Positions 13,813 through 64,000 of a stretch of 64,000 nucleotides of DNA are shown here, one piece after another. Position 1 is the first letter of the stretch. The number at the start of each line of letters is the position of its first letter. The stretch is from Ardenticatenaceae bacterium (GTDB lineage Bacteria; Chloroflexota; Anaerolineae; Promineifilales; Promineifilaceae): contig JACKBT010000001.1 of NCBI GenBank assembly GCA_020634415.1, positions 62,001 through 126,000 of the forward strand, written 5' to 3'. Below the pieces are notes generated by a model. It saw nothing but the letters and a program-made list of their open reading frames with translations. It was not told where the DNA came from and searched no databases. Both the position numbers and the translations under genes were made by a program.

Positions 13813-14598
13813 CTAAAAAAACTCGTCCAGCAGGCGATAAAAGGCGAGCTTATCGTTATCTGGCTGGGAAACTCCGTAACATTGCCAAAACAGCTTTTCC
13901 CAGCCTGCACCAAAGTTATAGGCCAGACTGCGCGTGCAAAGGGCTAAATCCTGGTAACGGTCGGCCAGACCGGCATTGCCCACATCTATGAAGCCAGAGA
14001 GACGGCCGTTCTCCACCATCACATTGGGCAAACAGTAGTCGCCATGTGTAAACACCACATCCTCCTCGGCTGGACGCGTGGCGAGAAGTTCCTGAAAGAG
14101 ATCGGCCGTTGGCCGCCCCCAACGCTCCTCATCAAAATCATCTTCATCCACCAGCCCGGCAATCACGCGCTGACGCGCCTTTTCAATCTGAACCTCCAGC
14201 CGATGGTTAAAGGGGCAGGCGGCAAGGGGCAAGCTGTGTAGTTGGTGTAATCCTTCAGCCAGCAGGCGCACGGCCGTTTCCTTTTCGCTGTCCGTCTTGT
14301 CGTTGCAAGAGGTGAGGTTGACACCCGGAACGGCCGTCATCAACAGGTAGGCCCCCTCTTCAGTCACAGCAAATTCCAAAAGCTGGGGGACGGGCAAACG
14401 GCCGTTTAGCCACTGTATGCGTTGGGCTTCGGCTTGAAGTGAGGCAGTGTGGGGCGAAACGGCCGTTTTCAAATACAGCACCTCATTCGCCCCCTGCAAA
14501 CGGAAAGTGTTTGCGCCTGACTCGCCTAAAGTATCTCGGCTCCAACGATAACCAATGAGGCGTTGGGTTAGTGTGGAGGGCAATTGGGGATGGTGCAT
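13813..14598 (-). CDS. APH(3')-like aminoglycoside phosphotransferase family protein
   Basis: 261 aa with the kinase-like fold of aminoglycoside 3'-phosphotransferases. The catalytic block is THGDYCLPNVMV (His185, Asp187). The metal-binding segment is GFIDVGNAGLADRYQDLA, and the C-terminus DKLAFYRLLDEFF matches the APH(3') end. The likely reaction is ATP-dependent phosphorylation of an aminoglycoside or related sugar; resistance is inferred, not shown. It has no ribosome site; a -10-like hexamer ends 6 bp before the ATG, so the mRNA may be leaderless. Confidence 0.85.
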   Translation of the reverse strand: MHHPQLPSTLTQRLIGYRWSRDTLGESGANTFRLQGANEVLYLKTAVSPHTASLQAEAQRIQWLNGRLPVPQLLEFAVTEEGAYLLMTAVPGVNLTSCNDKTDSEKETAVRLLAEGLHQLHSLPLAACPFNHRLEVQIEKARQRVIAGLVDEDDFDEERWGRPTADLFQELLATRPAEEDVVFTHGDYCLPNVMVENGRLSGFIDVGNAGLADRYQDLALCTRSLAYNFGAGWEKLFWQCYGVSQPDNDKLAFYRLLDEFF

Positions 14599-27801: not shown

Positions 27802-29061
27802 TTAATCCTTAAATCGCTCAAGATGGCGCTGCCAGCCCTCAATTACCCGAGATTCGGCCATTTCGCCACCTAACCGTAAACCAAACACCCCCGCCATTTG
27901 CTGCAAAGCCGCTTGCGCCTCAGTCACCGCATACCCATTTTCGGCGCGGAAGATAATCTCATCTGCCAGATTGAGAAGGCTGGCCAAAGCCATCGTCGTG
28001 TCCAAGTCATTGTCCATCGCCGCTTGAAAGCGGTCTTGAACCGGATGGATATTGATAGCCTGACCATCATGGCTAACGGCCGTCATCGCCACCGCCAACC
28101 GCTCCGCACTTTGCACCGCCTTAGCCAACGCCACCTCATCATGCGCCCATACCTCCCGGTAATGGTGCTGCGCCAGATAAATGCGCAAGGCATCGGCCGT
28201 ATAGTCCTGCAACAGATCACGCACCATCACCAAATTGCCCAGCGACTTGCTCATCTTCTCCCCCTCATACGCCACCATCGCCGTGTGCAGCCAAAAGCGC
28301 ACAAAGGGCTTCTGGCCCGTCACCGGCTCCACCTGGGCAATCTCACATTCATGGTGCGGAAAAAGCAAATCACTGCCCCCGCTGTGAATGTCTATCGTCT
28401 CGCCCAAGAAATGGGTTGCTAACGTAGAACATTCGATATGCCAACCGGGACGGCCGTTTCCCCAGGGACTCTTCCAGGCCGGTTCATCATCCGCCGCCTG
28501 CGCCTGCCACAGCACAAAATCCAACGGCTCACGTTTATGCGGGTCATCAGGGTGATTGCCCCGTTCATTGGCAATTGACAACCGCTCCTGCGGCGGAATT
28601 CGGCTCAAGGCCCCAAACTCCGGCCAATCCGCCACCTGGAAATAGACGTTCCCCTCAACTTCATAAGCCACCCCCGCCGCCAGCAGCCTCTGCACCTGCG
28701 CCACAATTTGCGGTATAACATCCGTTGCTCTGGGCAAATGGTCCGGCGGACGCACATTCAGTGCCTGCATATCCTCTATAAAATGGCGTGTCCAGCGGTT
28801 GCCCAACACCCGCCAATCCTCACCCACCGCCTGTGCCTTGCGCAAAATGTCATCGTCAATATCAGTCACATTTTGCACATAGTGAACCGTGTAACCCTGA
28901 TACTCCAGATAGCGTGTGAGAATATCGGCCGTTGTGTAAGTAAACGCATGGCCCAAATGGGTCGTATCATAGGGTGTAATGCCACAAACATAGAAGCTGA
29001 CACCCTCAGCCTGCGGCTTAAACAGCTCCTGCCGCTGTGTGCGTGTGTTATACAGCTCCAT
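27802..29061 (-). CDS. Cysteine ligase of the CysRS/MshC family
   Basis: 419 aa, shorter than usual cysteinyl-tRNA synthetase. Class I motifs: the HIGH-like site THLGH within VCGITPYDTTHLGHAF, and the KMSKS site EKMSKSLGN. Zinc ligands are the N-terminal Cys, WHIECS and PHHE. GITPYD-T-HLGHA, GRPGWHIECS, HYRE and DNDLDT look more like the mycothiol enzyme MshC than standard CysS, so it may join cysteine to a glucosaminyl-inositol-like acceptor. Charging of tRNA remains possible. Overlaps the TraR-like gene by 14 bp. Confidence 0.8.
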   Translation of the reverse strand: MELYNTRTQRQELFKPQAEGVSFYVCGITPYDTTHLGHAFTYTTADILTRYLEYQGYTVHYVQNVTDIDDDILRKAQAVGEDWRVLGNRWTRHFIEDMQALNVRPPDHLPRATDVIPQIVAQVQRLLAAGVAYEVEGNVYFQVADWPEFGALSRIPPQERLSIANERGNHPDDPHKREPLDFVLWQAQAADDEPAWKSPWGNGRPGWHIECSTLATHFLGETIDIHSGGSDLLFPHHECEIAQVEPVTGQKPFVRFWLHTAMVAYEGEKMSKSLGNLVMVRDLLQDYTADALRIYLAQHHYREVWAHDEVALAKAVQSAERLAVAMTAVSHDGQAINIHPVQDRFQAAMDNDLDTTMALASLLNLADEIIFRAENGYAVTEAQAALQQMAGVFGLRLGGEMAESRVIEGWQRHLERFKD

Positions 29062-55838: not shown

Positions 55839-55887
55839 AGATTGGAGATTGGAGATTTTTACTCTCCAATCTCCAATCTCTACTCTC
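55839..55887. repeat. Heptamer repeat fold-back (AGATTGG/CCAATCT)
   Basis: AGATTGG, AGATTGG, AGATTTTT then TCCAATC, TCCAATC, TCTACTC in 7-bp register; inverse arms. Confidence 0.85.
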
Positions 55888-56731
55888 CAAACAAATCATA
55901 TTCCCGAAAACCATCCGGCACAGGCGGATACGCCCGCATAAACATCTCCTGAGCAAAAAGCCGCTTTTGCACCCAGACCGGCAGCCAACCAAACCGCCCA
56001 CCACCACCGCCACCCTGGCTGGCATGGCAGGCACTCGCCGCCTGCTTCACATCCCAATACTCTCGATAATTGATCCGCGCATGAACCTTCTCCGGGTCCA
56101 TCCCCAACTTGGTAAAATCTATGTCCTTATTACGCCCCATCTTCGTGGGGTCTTGCCCCCGCAGACGCATCATCAACGTAAAAAACTTCACAAATCGCCG
56201 CGGGAACGCCGAGTAATACAGCCGCTCCGGTTGATAAGGAGGCAGGCCAAGCTCGGGATATTTTGTGGCATCACCAGCGGCGGAAAAAGCGGGTGTCGTC
56301 ACCTTCCAACACATAATATGATCTGGATGAAAATAACCACCCATCTCGTCATGCGTAATCACCACCTGCGGCCGAATCTCTCGAATCAGCTTCACCACGC
56401 GGCACACCGCTTCATCCAAATTAGCATTCACAAAAGCCTTGGGGTGTTGTCCCGCTGAGTCACCGATATAACCAGAATCTCGATAACCAAGATTGTGCAA
56501 GGTAACGCCCAAAACGCGAACGGCCGCTTGCAATTCCTCTGCCCGCACCGATACCAACTGCTCCCGCTTATCCTCAAACCCCTTTTCAACCGAACCAGCC
56601 GCCCCATCCGTCGCAATCGCCACATGCACATCTACTCCCTCCGCCGCATACCGCGCCAAAGTCCCACCCGTGCCAAACGACTCATCATCAGGATGCGCCA
56701 CAACCGCCAACATTCGTTTCTTTTCGCTCAT
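55880..56731 (-). CDS. PIG-L family deacetylase
   Basis: 283 aa. Zinc motifs AHPDDE (12-17) and HPDH near 137 define the LmbE/PIG-L family, which removes acetyl from N-acetylglucosaminyl conjugates (GlcNAc-PI, the mycothiol intermediate, bacillithiol). MshB/Mca versus another substrate cannot be told. A C-terminal extension beyond about 230 contains a Gly-run. No ribosome site; ATG 56731. Confidence 0.9.
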   Translation of the reverse strand: MSEKKRMLAVVAHPDDESFGTGGTLARYAAEGVDVHVAIATDGAAGSVEKGFEDKREQLVSVRAEELQAAVRVLGVTLHNLGYRDSGYIGDSAGQHPKAFVNANLDEAVCRVVKLIREIRPQVVITHDEMGGYFHPDHIMCWKVTTPAFSAAGDATKYPELGLPPYQPERLYYSAFPRRFVKFFTLMMRLRGQDPTKMGRNKDIDFTKLGMDPEKVHARINYREYWDVKQAASACHASQGGGGGGRFGWLPVWVQKRLFAQEMFMRAYPPVPDGFREYDLFGE

Positions 56732-58025: not shown

Positions 58026-58062
58026 ATCATCGGCAATCGGATAACGAATAACCGATCACCGA
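58026..58062. repeat. Heptamer repeat (AATCGGA)
   Basis: AATCGGA, TAACGAA, TAACCGA, TCACCGA in 7-bp register between acpS and the M16 gene. Confidence 0.65.
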
Positions 58063-59339
58063 ATACCATTAAGTGGCAATCCCGCCACAGCCACCGCCAA
58101 CTGATCCACACTCAAATATTTCTGAGCAGCAGCTTGAATACGTTCCACTGTCACCGCCTGCACCAGGCCAGGATACCGCTGCAAAAAGTCTAACCCCAAA
58201 TCATAAAAGGCCATATCGCCAATAATACCGGCCAGATTGGCATTTGTTTCCAGGCTGACGGGCAGCGAGCCAGTGCGGTAAGCCTGGCTGTCTGCCAGCT
58301 CTTCGGCCGGAACAGGTTCATTTTGCATACGGCCGATTTCCCCCCGCACACTCTCAATCGCCTGTTCCACCTTATTCGGAGCCACCCCCATACTCACAAT
58401 CCAGGGTGATGGCCCCAGGCCACCTTGCAAATGACTGTAAGCATAATAAGCCAGCCCCTGCTCCTCACGCACCGTCTGCCCAATGCGCCCCATCATACCA
58501 AAAACACCCAAAATTGTGTTCATCAAACTGGCATCCATATAATCCGGCGCATTACGGCGCGGCCCTGGCAGGCCCAAATAAATGTCACATTGGCTCTTGT
58601 CCGCCATCGGCACATCCCTGCGGATAATGCCCGTTGGCCGGGCCACATCAGCCACTTCGGGCAAAGGCTGCTGCTCAGGATTACGCCAATTGCCCAAAAC
58701 GGCCGTTACCTTCGCCAACGCCTCCTCCGCCCGAATCGCCCCCACCACCGTCACAATCATCCCCTGCGGGCCATAATAACGTTGGTGGAACGCCTCAATC
58801 GCCTCCCGCGTCATGCCCAGAATCGTTTTAGGATAGCCCGAAATAGAACGGCCGTATGGATGCTCCCCATACAACATCTCCCGAAACGCCAAATTCGCCA
58901 TCTGCTGCGTATCATTCGCCCGAATCTGCAACCCCGTCAAAATCTGGCCCCGCACCTGCTCCACATACTGCACCGGAAACGTCGGATAACACAGCGACTG
59001 CGCCGTCATATCCAACATCAAATCCAAATCCTCCACCAACCCACCCGCCGAAAACTGCGTCGCGTGCCGCCCCCCCGCAAAGTCCAGCGCCGCCCCCACC
59101 CCTTCTAGCTCCTCGTAAATTTGGTCAAACGGCCGTTTCTCCGTACCATACATCAACAAAGCCGCCGTAAAATCGGCCAACCCCGTACATTCCGCCGACT
59201 CCGCCACCGCCCCCGCCCGCACCACACCATCCAACACCACCGACTCAGTGGCAAAATTTTCATACACCAATAAAGTTATGCCATTATCCAAGACATAACG
59301 ATGAATTGTTTCGGGACCAGGGTAGCGCGTATCAAGCAT
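58056..59339 (-). CDS. M16 peptidase homolog, catalytically inactive
   Basis: 427 aa, two M16 halves. The first half starts with YVLDNGITLLVYEN as in processing peptidases. The zinc motif HxxEH is replaced by D56-F-T-A-A in GLADFTAALLMYGT, so the metal site is lost. The C-terminal half keeps the Arg/Tyr-rich block near 300 (GLAYYAYSHLQGGLG). In bacteria such proteins pair with an active M16 subunit, which is not in the window. TATCAT ends 6 nt before ATG 59339 with a TTGTCG -35 at 17 bp, so a leaderless transcript is likely. Confidence 0.85.
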   Translation of the reverse strand: MLDTRYPGPETIHRYVLDNGITLLVYENFATESVVLDGVVRAGAVAESAECTGLADFTAALLMYGTEKRPFDQIYEELEGVGAALDFAGGRHATQFSAGGLVEDLDLMLDMTAQSLCYPTFPVQYVEQVRGQILTGLQIRANDTQQMANLAFREMLYGEHPYGRSISGYPKTILGMTREAIEAFHQRYYGPQGMIVTVVGAIRAEEALAKVTAVLGNWRNPEQQPLPEVADVARPTGIIRRDVPMADKSQCDIYLGLPGPRRNAPDYMDASLMNTILGVFGMMGRIGQTVREEQGLAYYAYSHLQGGLGPSPWIVSMGVAPNKVEQAIESVRGEIGRMQNEPVPAEELADSQAYRTGSLPVSLETNANLAGIIGDMAFYDLGLDFLQRYPGLVQAVTVERIQAAAQKYLSVDQLAVAVAGLPLNGIR

Positions 59340-62733: not shown

Positions 62734-63267
62734 TTATGGCTCAGCTTCAAATTCCGGCACAGGACGGGCTTCCGCCTCCCCTTGAGTCGCGGCTTCACCA
62801 TTCTCACGAATATCTTCAAGCAGCCAGTCCATCTCCTTAATCTCCCGGCGTTGTGCTTCAATAATATCATCAGCCAATGCCCGCACCCGCATGTCCGTAA
62901 TCTCGGCCCGTTCACTGGTTAAAATAGCAATCGAATGATGCGGAATCATGGCTCGCATCCACGATTCATCTTGAACAGTTACCTGGCTGCGCACCAAATA
63001 CAAAGCCAACACAAAAACGGCTAGGCTGCCAACATAGATAGACATATTAACCTGTTTATTTTTGTAGCTGCTTTGCATAAAGCTAAGCATGATCACCGCC
63101 ATCGCCGCTCCCATAATGAAAGTCATGTAGACGCGAGTCTCGCTCCAAAGCACATGGGAAAGCTCATATGTGTTCAGGTACATCAAGGCGTACATCACCA
63201 CCATCGAAGTCACAATCATCGCCGCAAATTTGCCATAGGGAGATCTTTCGTCACGTTTTTCCATCAT
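62734..63267 (-). CDS. DUF305-domain membrane protein
   Basis: 177 aa. Three or four membrane helices (about 13-92), then a DUF305 segment: WMRAMIPHHSIAILTSERAEITD and VRALADDIIEAQRREIKEMDWLL, with paired His and Met. DUF305 proteins are often linked to copper handling. Its neighbours, a thioredoxin-like protein and a copper ATPase, support that. Start ATG 63267 or 63264. Confidence 0.88.
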   Translation of the reverse strand: MMEKRDERSPYGKFAAMIVTSMVVMYALMYLNTYELSHVLWSETRVYMTFIMGAAMAVIMLSFMQSSYKNKQVNMSIYVGSLAVFVLALYLVRSQVTVQDESWMRAMIPHHSIAILTSERAEITDMRVRALADDIIEAQRREIKEMDWLLEDIRENGEAATQGEAEARPVPEFEAEP

Positions 63268-63442: not shown

Positions 63443-63823
63443 CTATTCGGAAACGGCCGTTAACACCTCCCGCAACACCTCTACCTCCTCCGCCCCATAA
63501 TACCGCTCCACCACTTCATGATTGGCATTGAGCACAACGGCCGTTGGATGCCCCCTTAACCCATAACTTTGCTGAATCGCCTCATTCTCGACCGTCCCCA
63601 CATTCACCTTCACCACAGCCACCCGCCCCGCAAACTCAACCGCCAACCCGTCCACGACGGGCTCAAAAGCCTGTCAGGGCGGTCAACCCTCCGTGTAAAA
63701 ATAGATAAACGCCGGGCCAGTGATGGGTGTCACCTCCACTTCTGGCAGAGCGGATTCAGCCTGAATACAAGCCCCCAAAAAAGCCAGCAAAGCCAAAATG
63801 CCCAACCACCAACATCTTGTCAC
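63443..63823 (-). CDS. Thioredoxin-like lipoprotein, probable selenoprotein with UxxU site
   Basis: 126 residues read as one frame with two in-frame TGA codons at 63683-63685 (residue 47) and 63674-63676 (residue 50). The protein is MTRCWWLGILALLAFLGAC (lipobox Cys19), then a thioredoxin fold: FIYFYTEG-U-PP-U-QAFEPVVDG, AVVKVNVGTVENE, and cis-Pro GHPTAVVL. The TGAs fall exactly on the two CxxC cysteines. A hairpin CCCGTC-GTG-GACGGG (63647-63661) begins 12 nt after the second TGA and can extend to 8 bp with G at the start of the loop, as in bacterial SECIS. GTG 63823 has GGAAGG 5 nt upstream. Alternative: pseudogene. Confidence 0.8.
63647..63661 (-). promoter_or_regulatory. Candidate bacterial SECIS hairpin
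   Basis: Minus-strand stem CCCGTC / GACGGG with loop GTG. The loop begins 18 nt after the second TGA and 27 nt after the first. Pairing can extend outward by A-U and G-U to 8 bp. Reported bacterial SECIS models place a G-containing small loop about 16-37 nt after the UGA, so one hairpin could serve both codons. Confidence 0.6.
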
Positions 63824-63836
63824 AAAAACCTTCCCA

Positions 63837-63872
63837 TAAAAAAACGGCCGTCTTGCAAACAAGACGGCCGTT
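63837..63872 (-). terminator. Terminator of the copper ATPase, built on two ACGGCCGT
   Basis: AACGGCCGTCTTG / CAAGACGGCCGTT with a 4-nt loop, and on the minus strand a seven-T run follows (63838-63844). It lies between the ATPase stop and the thioredoxin-like gene. Confidence 0.8.
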
Positions 63873-63887
63873 CCACACATCCATCTA

Positions 63888-64000
63888 CTATAGTTTTAGC
63901 CCACGCAAACGCAGCGCATTACTCACCACACTAATACTCGAAAAAGCCATCGCCCCCGCCGCCAAAATTGGATGCAGTTGGCGCAAAAAGTCCGGTGCCC
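63888..64000 (-). CDS. Copper-type P1B ATPase, C-terminal fragment (5' part outside window)
   Basis: The last 37 residues are visible: PDFLRQLHPILAAGAMAFS and SISVVSNALRLRGLKL, then TAG at 63888-63890. The AAGAMAFSSISVVSNALRLR pattern is the last membrane helix of CopA-type ATPases, whose conserved Met and Ser residues help bind Cu+. The rest of the gene lies off the right edge. It is transcribed toward the thioredoxin-like gene, with a terminator between. Confidence 0.88.
   Translation of the reverse strand, partial: APDFLRQLHPILAAGAMAFSSISVVSNALRLRGLKL

Follow-up and report, generated by a model that had tools for sequence, protein, structure and literature searches.

Two in-frame TGA codons at the active-site cysteine positions of a thioredoxin-like lipoprotein gene from an Ardenticatenaceae bacterium: a probable selenoprotein with truncated database relatives

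Organization of the locus

The DNA analysed here is a stretch of 64,000 nucleotides, hereafter called the window, from contig JACKBT010000001.1 of the Ardenticatenaceae bacterium assembly GCA_020634415.1. Close to its right end lies a gene for a thioredoxin-like lipoprotein, which is read from the minus strand (the original prediction gave none) and carries two in-frame TGA codons. The gene and its surroundings comprise the following features:

63888..63998, minus strand: C-terminal end (36 aa) of a P-type ATPase, probably copper-exporting, running off the window
63841..63874, minus strand: terminator-like hairpin of 15 bp followed by a T run (−24.9 kcal/mol, z −5.9)
63829..63835, minus strand: likely ribosome-binding site GGGAAGG, assigned by eye, five bases upstream of the start codon
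63443..63823, minus strand: gene of the thioredoxin-like lipoprotein, comprising 126 codons when both TGAs are read through, with GTG (63823-63821) as the start and TAG (63445-63443) as the stop
63767..63823, minus strand: signal peptide with lipobox FLGAC, assigned by eye; putative lipidated Cys encoded by TGT at 63769-63767
63683..63685, minus strand: first TGA, in place of the N-terminal CxxC cysteine (read-frame residue 57, protein residue 47)
63674..63676, minus strand: second TGA, in place of the C-terminal CxxC cysteine (read-frame residue 60, protein residue 50)
63645..63663, minus strand: SECIS-like hairpin with 6 core pairs (63661-63647), 2 outer pairs and the loop GUG
62734..63267, minus strand: DUF305/CopM-like membrane protein (PF03713, E = 1.7e-10)

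The sole PDB match of the ATPase fragment was a copper efflux ATPase (E = 0.0013), and the DUF305 protein scored 37.3 bits with the CopM model NF049983, under the cut-off of 90. The terminator-like hairpin sits between the ATPase and the thioredoxin-like gene, and 175 bases separate the latter from the DUF305 gene; therefore, co-transcription with either neighbour is not supported. The protein had been proposed as a redox partner of copper handling. The ATPase end and the DUF305 gene do adjoin it, but the ATPase is set off by the terminator-like hairpin, and any role in copper handling, like any choice of substrates or partners, would be a guess from adjacency in one window.

The same hairpin is built on the palindrome ACGGCCGT and ends just upstream of the ribosome-binding site of the gene; a simple terminator and promoter scan listed neither this hairpin nor any promoter. 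The palindrome AACGGCCGTT was found at 52 places of the window, from 4162 to 63545, versus 0.06 expected from shuffles. It also occurs within coding genes, twice in the thioredoxin-like gene, and resembles the highly iterated palindromes exemplified by the cyanobacterial HIP1.

Elsewhere in the window, a short CysS-like protein with an additional match to the mycothiol ligase MshC (378 bits versus a cut-off of 485) is encoded at 27802-29061 (minus strand), and a Mca/MshB-like deacetylase at 55880-56731 (minus strand; 194 bits versus a cut-off of 277). Judged from these matches, the two genes possibly belong to a low-molecular-weight thiol pathway. A gene resembling the APH(3') family of aminoglycoside phosphotransferases lies at 13813-14598 (minus strand; 332 bits versus a cut-off of 205).

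Reading frame and use of TGA

With TGA translated as U, the minus-strand frame from 63853 to 63443 is broken only by the two TGA codons, and the active-site stretch reads TEG-U-PP-U-QAF (U-P-P-U). The predicted single frame was thus confirmed: it runs from a lipobox (FLGAC) through the whole of a thioredoxin (PF00085, E = 3e-12) and has TGA at the two CxxC positions. A frameshift is ruled out, in line with the original prediction, because the flanks of both TGAs share one frame. The remaining two Cys codons of the gene (read-frame residues 14 and 29) are TGT. A single copy of the pattern TGACCNCCNTGA-N12-CC is present in the window, and none of 100 shuffles contained it.

The coding score of the segment downstream of the TGAs was 44.1; of 803 wrong-frame segments, 0.25% scored as high. 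For the segment upstream of the TGAs a score of 11.7 was obtained, attained by 7% of 1723 wrong-frame segments, so that by this measure the upstream half is positive but weakly distinguished from wrong-frame DNA.

TGA is the stop codon of 12 of the 50 ORFs in a mechanical ORF list, including the acyl-CoA dehydrogenase at 472-1635; it is thus a normal stop here, as had been claimed, and a change of the genetic code is ruled out. The 120 Cys codons in the 33 larger training ORFs were all TGC (62) or TGT (58). The window yielded no further TGA-split gene. A scan for such genes gave four sites, all of which were dismissed: at three of them a longer ORF occupies the opposite strand, and the fourth is the true stop of ORF 58056-59339. 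The filter of the scan excludes the thioredoxin-like gene as well, since just two codons separate the TGAs of the latter.

These counts bear on the proposal that UGA is read as Cys or another residue, and not as selenocysteine (Sec), by a suppressor tRNA. Room for such a tRNA is left by the set available for comparison, which consists of the three tRNAs of the window (one Arg and two Ser), with the rest of the genome outside it. The use of TGA as a normal stop and the ordinary use of TGC and TGT, with TGT present in the thioredoxin-like gene itself, however, speak against the proposal, which would also leave the confinement of UGA to the catalytic sites unexplained. It is considered very unlikely.

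Thioredoxin domain and predicted structure

For domain searches U was entered as C. PF00085 matched read-frame residues 46-131 with 46.9 bits (cut-off 23.5; E = 3e-12). The NCBIfam thioredoxin equivalog TIGR01068 scored 47.4 bits versus its curated cut-off of 96.8, which places the protein outside thioredoxin proper. Distinct PDB sequences matching at E ≤ 0.01 numbered 183, and those listed were thioredoxins, thioredoxin fusions and PDI-like proteins. The AlphaFold2 model had a mean pLDDT of 81.8, with values of at least 90 for 86 of the 126 residues; the low part corresponds to the signal and linker, and residues 41-126 form blocks of mean pLDDT 93-95. In this model the TGA-encoded residues 47 and 50 lie at or just inside the start of the helix formed by residues 48-63, the first being N-terminal to the helix. 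The best 50 PDB matches found by Foldseek were thioredoxins or thioredoxin fusions, among them E. coli thioredoxin (2trx, E = 1.5e-8). By domain match and predicted fold, the protein is a member of the thioredoxin superfamily.

PF00578 (AhpC/TSA) was absent among the Pfam matches of the protein up to E = 1, which sets it apart from the Prx-like UxxU proteins, and an NCBIfam search of the protein gave no match to NF041115 at E ≤ 0.1. The StoA and ResA models matched weakly. Like ordinary lipoprotein thioredoxins, for example those of the ResA/TlpA/StoA type, the window protein would be a membrane-anchored extracytoplasmic thioredoxin, but they have Cys where the window has TGA.

Relatives in protein databases

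The first protein search was performed against 5.8 billion proteins with the full read-through sequence, Cys being placed at both sites and candidates being limited to 75-238 aa. One of the 41 candidates matched, an ordinary thioredoxin of 29% identity; the family was missed because its members are called short. When the 76 residues after the second TGA were used as the query, four proteins of 64-70 aa with 77-97% identity were obtained, and a profile of those four, applied to 1639 candidates, retrieved 24 proteins at E ≤ 0.001. Candidates were chosen by shared 5-residue words and by length (42-133 aa); this range admits full-length orthologs of the 126-residue protein, while Cys orthologs of more than 133 aa could escape, as could diverged ones.

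Nineteen of the 24 proteins (P0003-P0021) are short ORFs of 62-76 aa, with 64-156 bits and 42-97% identity to the window protein. All of them start 3-15 residues past the position of the second TGA: the first residue corresponds to window position 67 in 13 calls, to 63 or 64 in four and to 72 or 75 in two. In four relatives a break at residue 62 or earlier is required. A counterpart of the upstream half is present in none of the 19 gene calls. The motif R-G-H-P at residues 100-103 is shared by all 19 and the window protein, with His preceding the cis-proline in every relative. The remaining five proteins are full-length CGPC thioredoxins (107-109 aa, 37-55 bits), none with RGHP. One member, P0010, has the source name Chloroflexota bacterium. 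Annotations of the kind 'thioredoxin-like negative regulator of GroEL', which nothing here supports, are attached to the truncated members P0012 and P0016.

As a control, a similar profile of the same region (74 positions, itself not spanning CxxC) was run against 61 Bacteroidota genomes and gave at least 150 matches, all of those listed lying in open frames no shorter than 100 aa, with one listed match having an internal TAA. A scan of genome contigs gave one unrelated locus (Muribaculaceae, 26%), and three scans of viral contigs gave no match. Plasmid and phage records yielded 413 and 45 matches, respectively, all below 60% identity, and those listed were ordinary thioredoxins or unannotated. 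With a SpoIIE-like protein as the query, no Chloroflexota record was among the plasmid matches listed.

Since all 19 relatives, down to 42% identity, are calls that start past the active site, the interruption is, as far as these gene calls reveal it, a conserved trait of a diverged family. A decaying frame in relatives would have spoken against the original prediction; the calls show the opposite. The same data weigh on the possibility of a pseudogene, in which two nonsense mutations struck a decaying thioredoxin gene. Nothing favours it except the stops themselves, and 19 relatives retain the downstream half, its invariant or near-invariant residues and the same break point, so that it appears extremely unlikely.

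Taken at face value, the database records would favour another reading, namely that the real product is a short C-terminal protein starting at GTG 63655, a thioredoxin remnant lacking the active site, as relatives are recorded in that way. Against it, the upstream half keeps a thioredoxin strand, the lipobox and the ribosome-binding site in frame, and the short product would be a start-less half fold without the first strand that is present in the AlphaFold2 model. Moreover, the starts of the relatives vary (residues 63, 64, 67, 72 and 75), as expected when a gene caller takes the next start codon. This reading is hardly credible.

Candidate SECIS element and selenocysteine machinery

The predicted hairpin at 63647-63661 is present, and the distances of 27 nt from the first TGA and 18 nt from the second hold when they are taken to the beginning of the loop, not to the stem. 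The folding energy of the 19-nt stem-loop is −10.8 kcal/mol, with a range from −8.2 to −12.0 kcal/mol depending on the length taken. The bSECIS rule as stated in PMC13188914 comprises a loop of 3-9 nt that has G among its first two positions, a stem of 4-16 bp, a distance from UGA to loop of 16-37 nt and a minimum free energy of at most −7.5. With the loop GUG, 6-8 bp, 27 and 18 nt and the above energy, the hairpin lies within all of these constraints, as the original prediction of SECIS range had implied. Among 1032 sampled coding positions of the window, 43 had a rule-conforming hairpin and 10 an equally stable one. Synonymous recoding of the stretch gave a rule-conforming hairpin in 605 of 3000 cases and an equally stable one in 218 (7%), while among 5000 recodings the stem length by itself was matched by 39-50%, which is not significant, and the local folding energy by about 3%. 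The hairpin is thus suggestive, being modestly better than chance, and is partly imposed by the protein sequence.

Positions 68-69 are covered by 17 relatives, of which 16 read [DN]G and one, P0005, reads DR; none of the five ordinary thioredoxins has [DN]G there. This conservation fits a constraint on the RNA, yet could be structural.

No tRNA-Sec was found within the 64-kb window, and no sel family was among the NCBIfam matches listed for 41 of the 50 ORFs, the lists of two of these ORFs covering 25 families each. For the wider lineage, Sec-annotated formate dehydrogenases and Sec-specific translation factors are mentioned for Anaerolineales single cells in PMC4959059, and three selenoproteins of three families are counted for Chloroflexi in PMC1794560.

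Discussion

In-frame UGA at redox-active Cys positions, a feature by which selenoproteins are recognized, is seen in the window sequence, and interruption of homologs, a second such feature, is seen in relatives known from gene calls alone. Very probably, the gene belongs to a selenoprotein family that was overlooked by gene finders and whose member in the window has two Sec residues in its active site.

Table 1 of PMC13188914 (2026) covers 119 prokaryotic selenoprotein families and subfamilies, with the thioredoxins of PF00085 given as UxxC with one Sec and UxxU given for the Prx-like PF00578, metal-binding and FmdB families only. A UxxU thioredoxin is absent from this table, and no report of one was found by full-text searches of openly accessible journal papers. 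With the tabulated Sec-thioredoxin the window protein shares the thioredoxin fold and, probably, Sec at the first catalytic position, but it has TGA at both positions, the second not being Cys; it also differs as a predicted extracytoplasmic lipoprotein with RGHP before and at the cis-proline and 47.4 bits against the 96.8-bit cut-off. The Prx-like thiol:disulfide oxidoreductases (PF00578; UxxC/UxxU in the same table) share UxxU in a thioredoxin-type fold, but the window protein is in a different Pfam family, without a PF00578 match. Prx-like 2 from GOS is likewise given as UxxU in PMC2398784. The metal-binding UxxU protein NF041115 (PMC13188914) has UxxU and a metal context in common with the window protein, which lacks a match to it.

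The truncation of the relatives fits one TGA as well as two. A single-Sec family (UxxC or CxxU), with one TGA of the window having arisen by a private mutation or by an error in sequencing or assembly, would accord with this, and the tabulated PF00085 Sec-thioredoxins are UxxC; such an error, however, must strike exactly the codon of the other catalytic Cys, in a window where no TGA-split gene was found elsewhere. A single-Sec family is accordingly regarded as unlikely.

The favoured explanation, to which a probability of about 0.87 is assigned, is that both UGAs encode Sec by means of one hairpin and that the product is an exported, lipid-anchored thioredoxin-like oxidoreductase with a UPPU diselenol/diselenide site. 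SelB carrying Sec-tRNA would attach to the hairpin and thereby bring about the recoding of both UGAs, the single downstream element being in range of both codons. The polypeptide would then be exported and lipid-anchored outside the cytoplasmic membrane, where the UPPU site may alternate between diselenol and diselenide. Animal selenoprotein L has UxxU with a diselenide bond and is of the Prx-like2 kind; it shares the motif and the expected diselenide chemistry with the window protein, but is set apart by description, being an animal Prx-like2 protein with an unrelated SECIS system. The R-G-x-P motif with His before the cis-proline resembles RGYP, a motif of protein disulfide isomerases, and by this analogy suggests that the second catalytic residue may be tuned.

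A broader proposal, for and against which we see even odds, is that the relatives constitute a lineage-wide Chloroflexota family of lipoprotein thioredoxins that are dedicated, extracytoplasmic, always-Sec UxxU diselenide oxidoreductases. One SECIS element would then serve two UGAs nine bases apart, the hairpin would shape the stretch P-[IV]-V-[DN]-G, and the family would be hidden from databases by gene calls confined to the last 70 residues.

CxxC-type sites with two Sec residues are rare among selenoproteins, and the list of 119 prokaryotic families in PMC13188914 has none in the thioredoxin family. UGA recoding is inefficient, and a small protein that bears its cost twice suggests selection for diselenide redox chemistry itself. 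The system is small and testable, with one domain, one hairpin and two UGAs. Moreover, it offers a route to missed selenoproteins: the part after the UGA may be used as a query for families that consist wholly of truncated gene calls.
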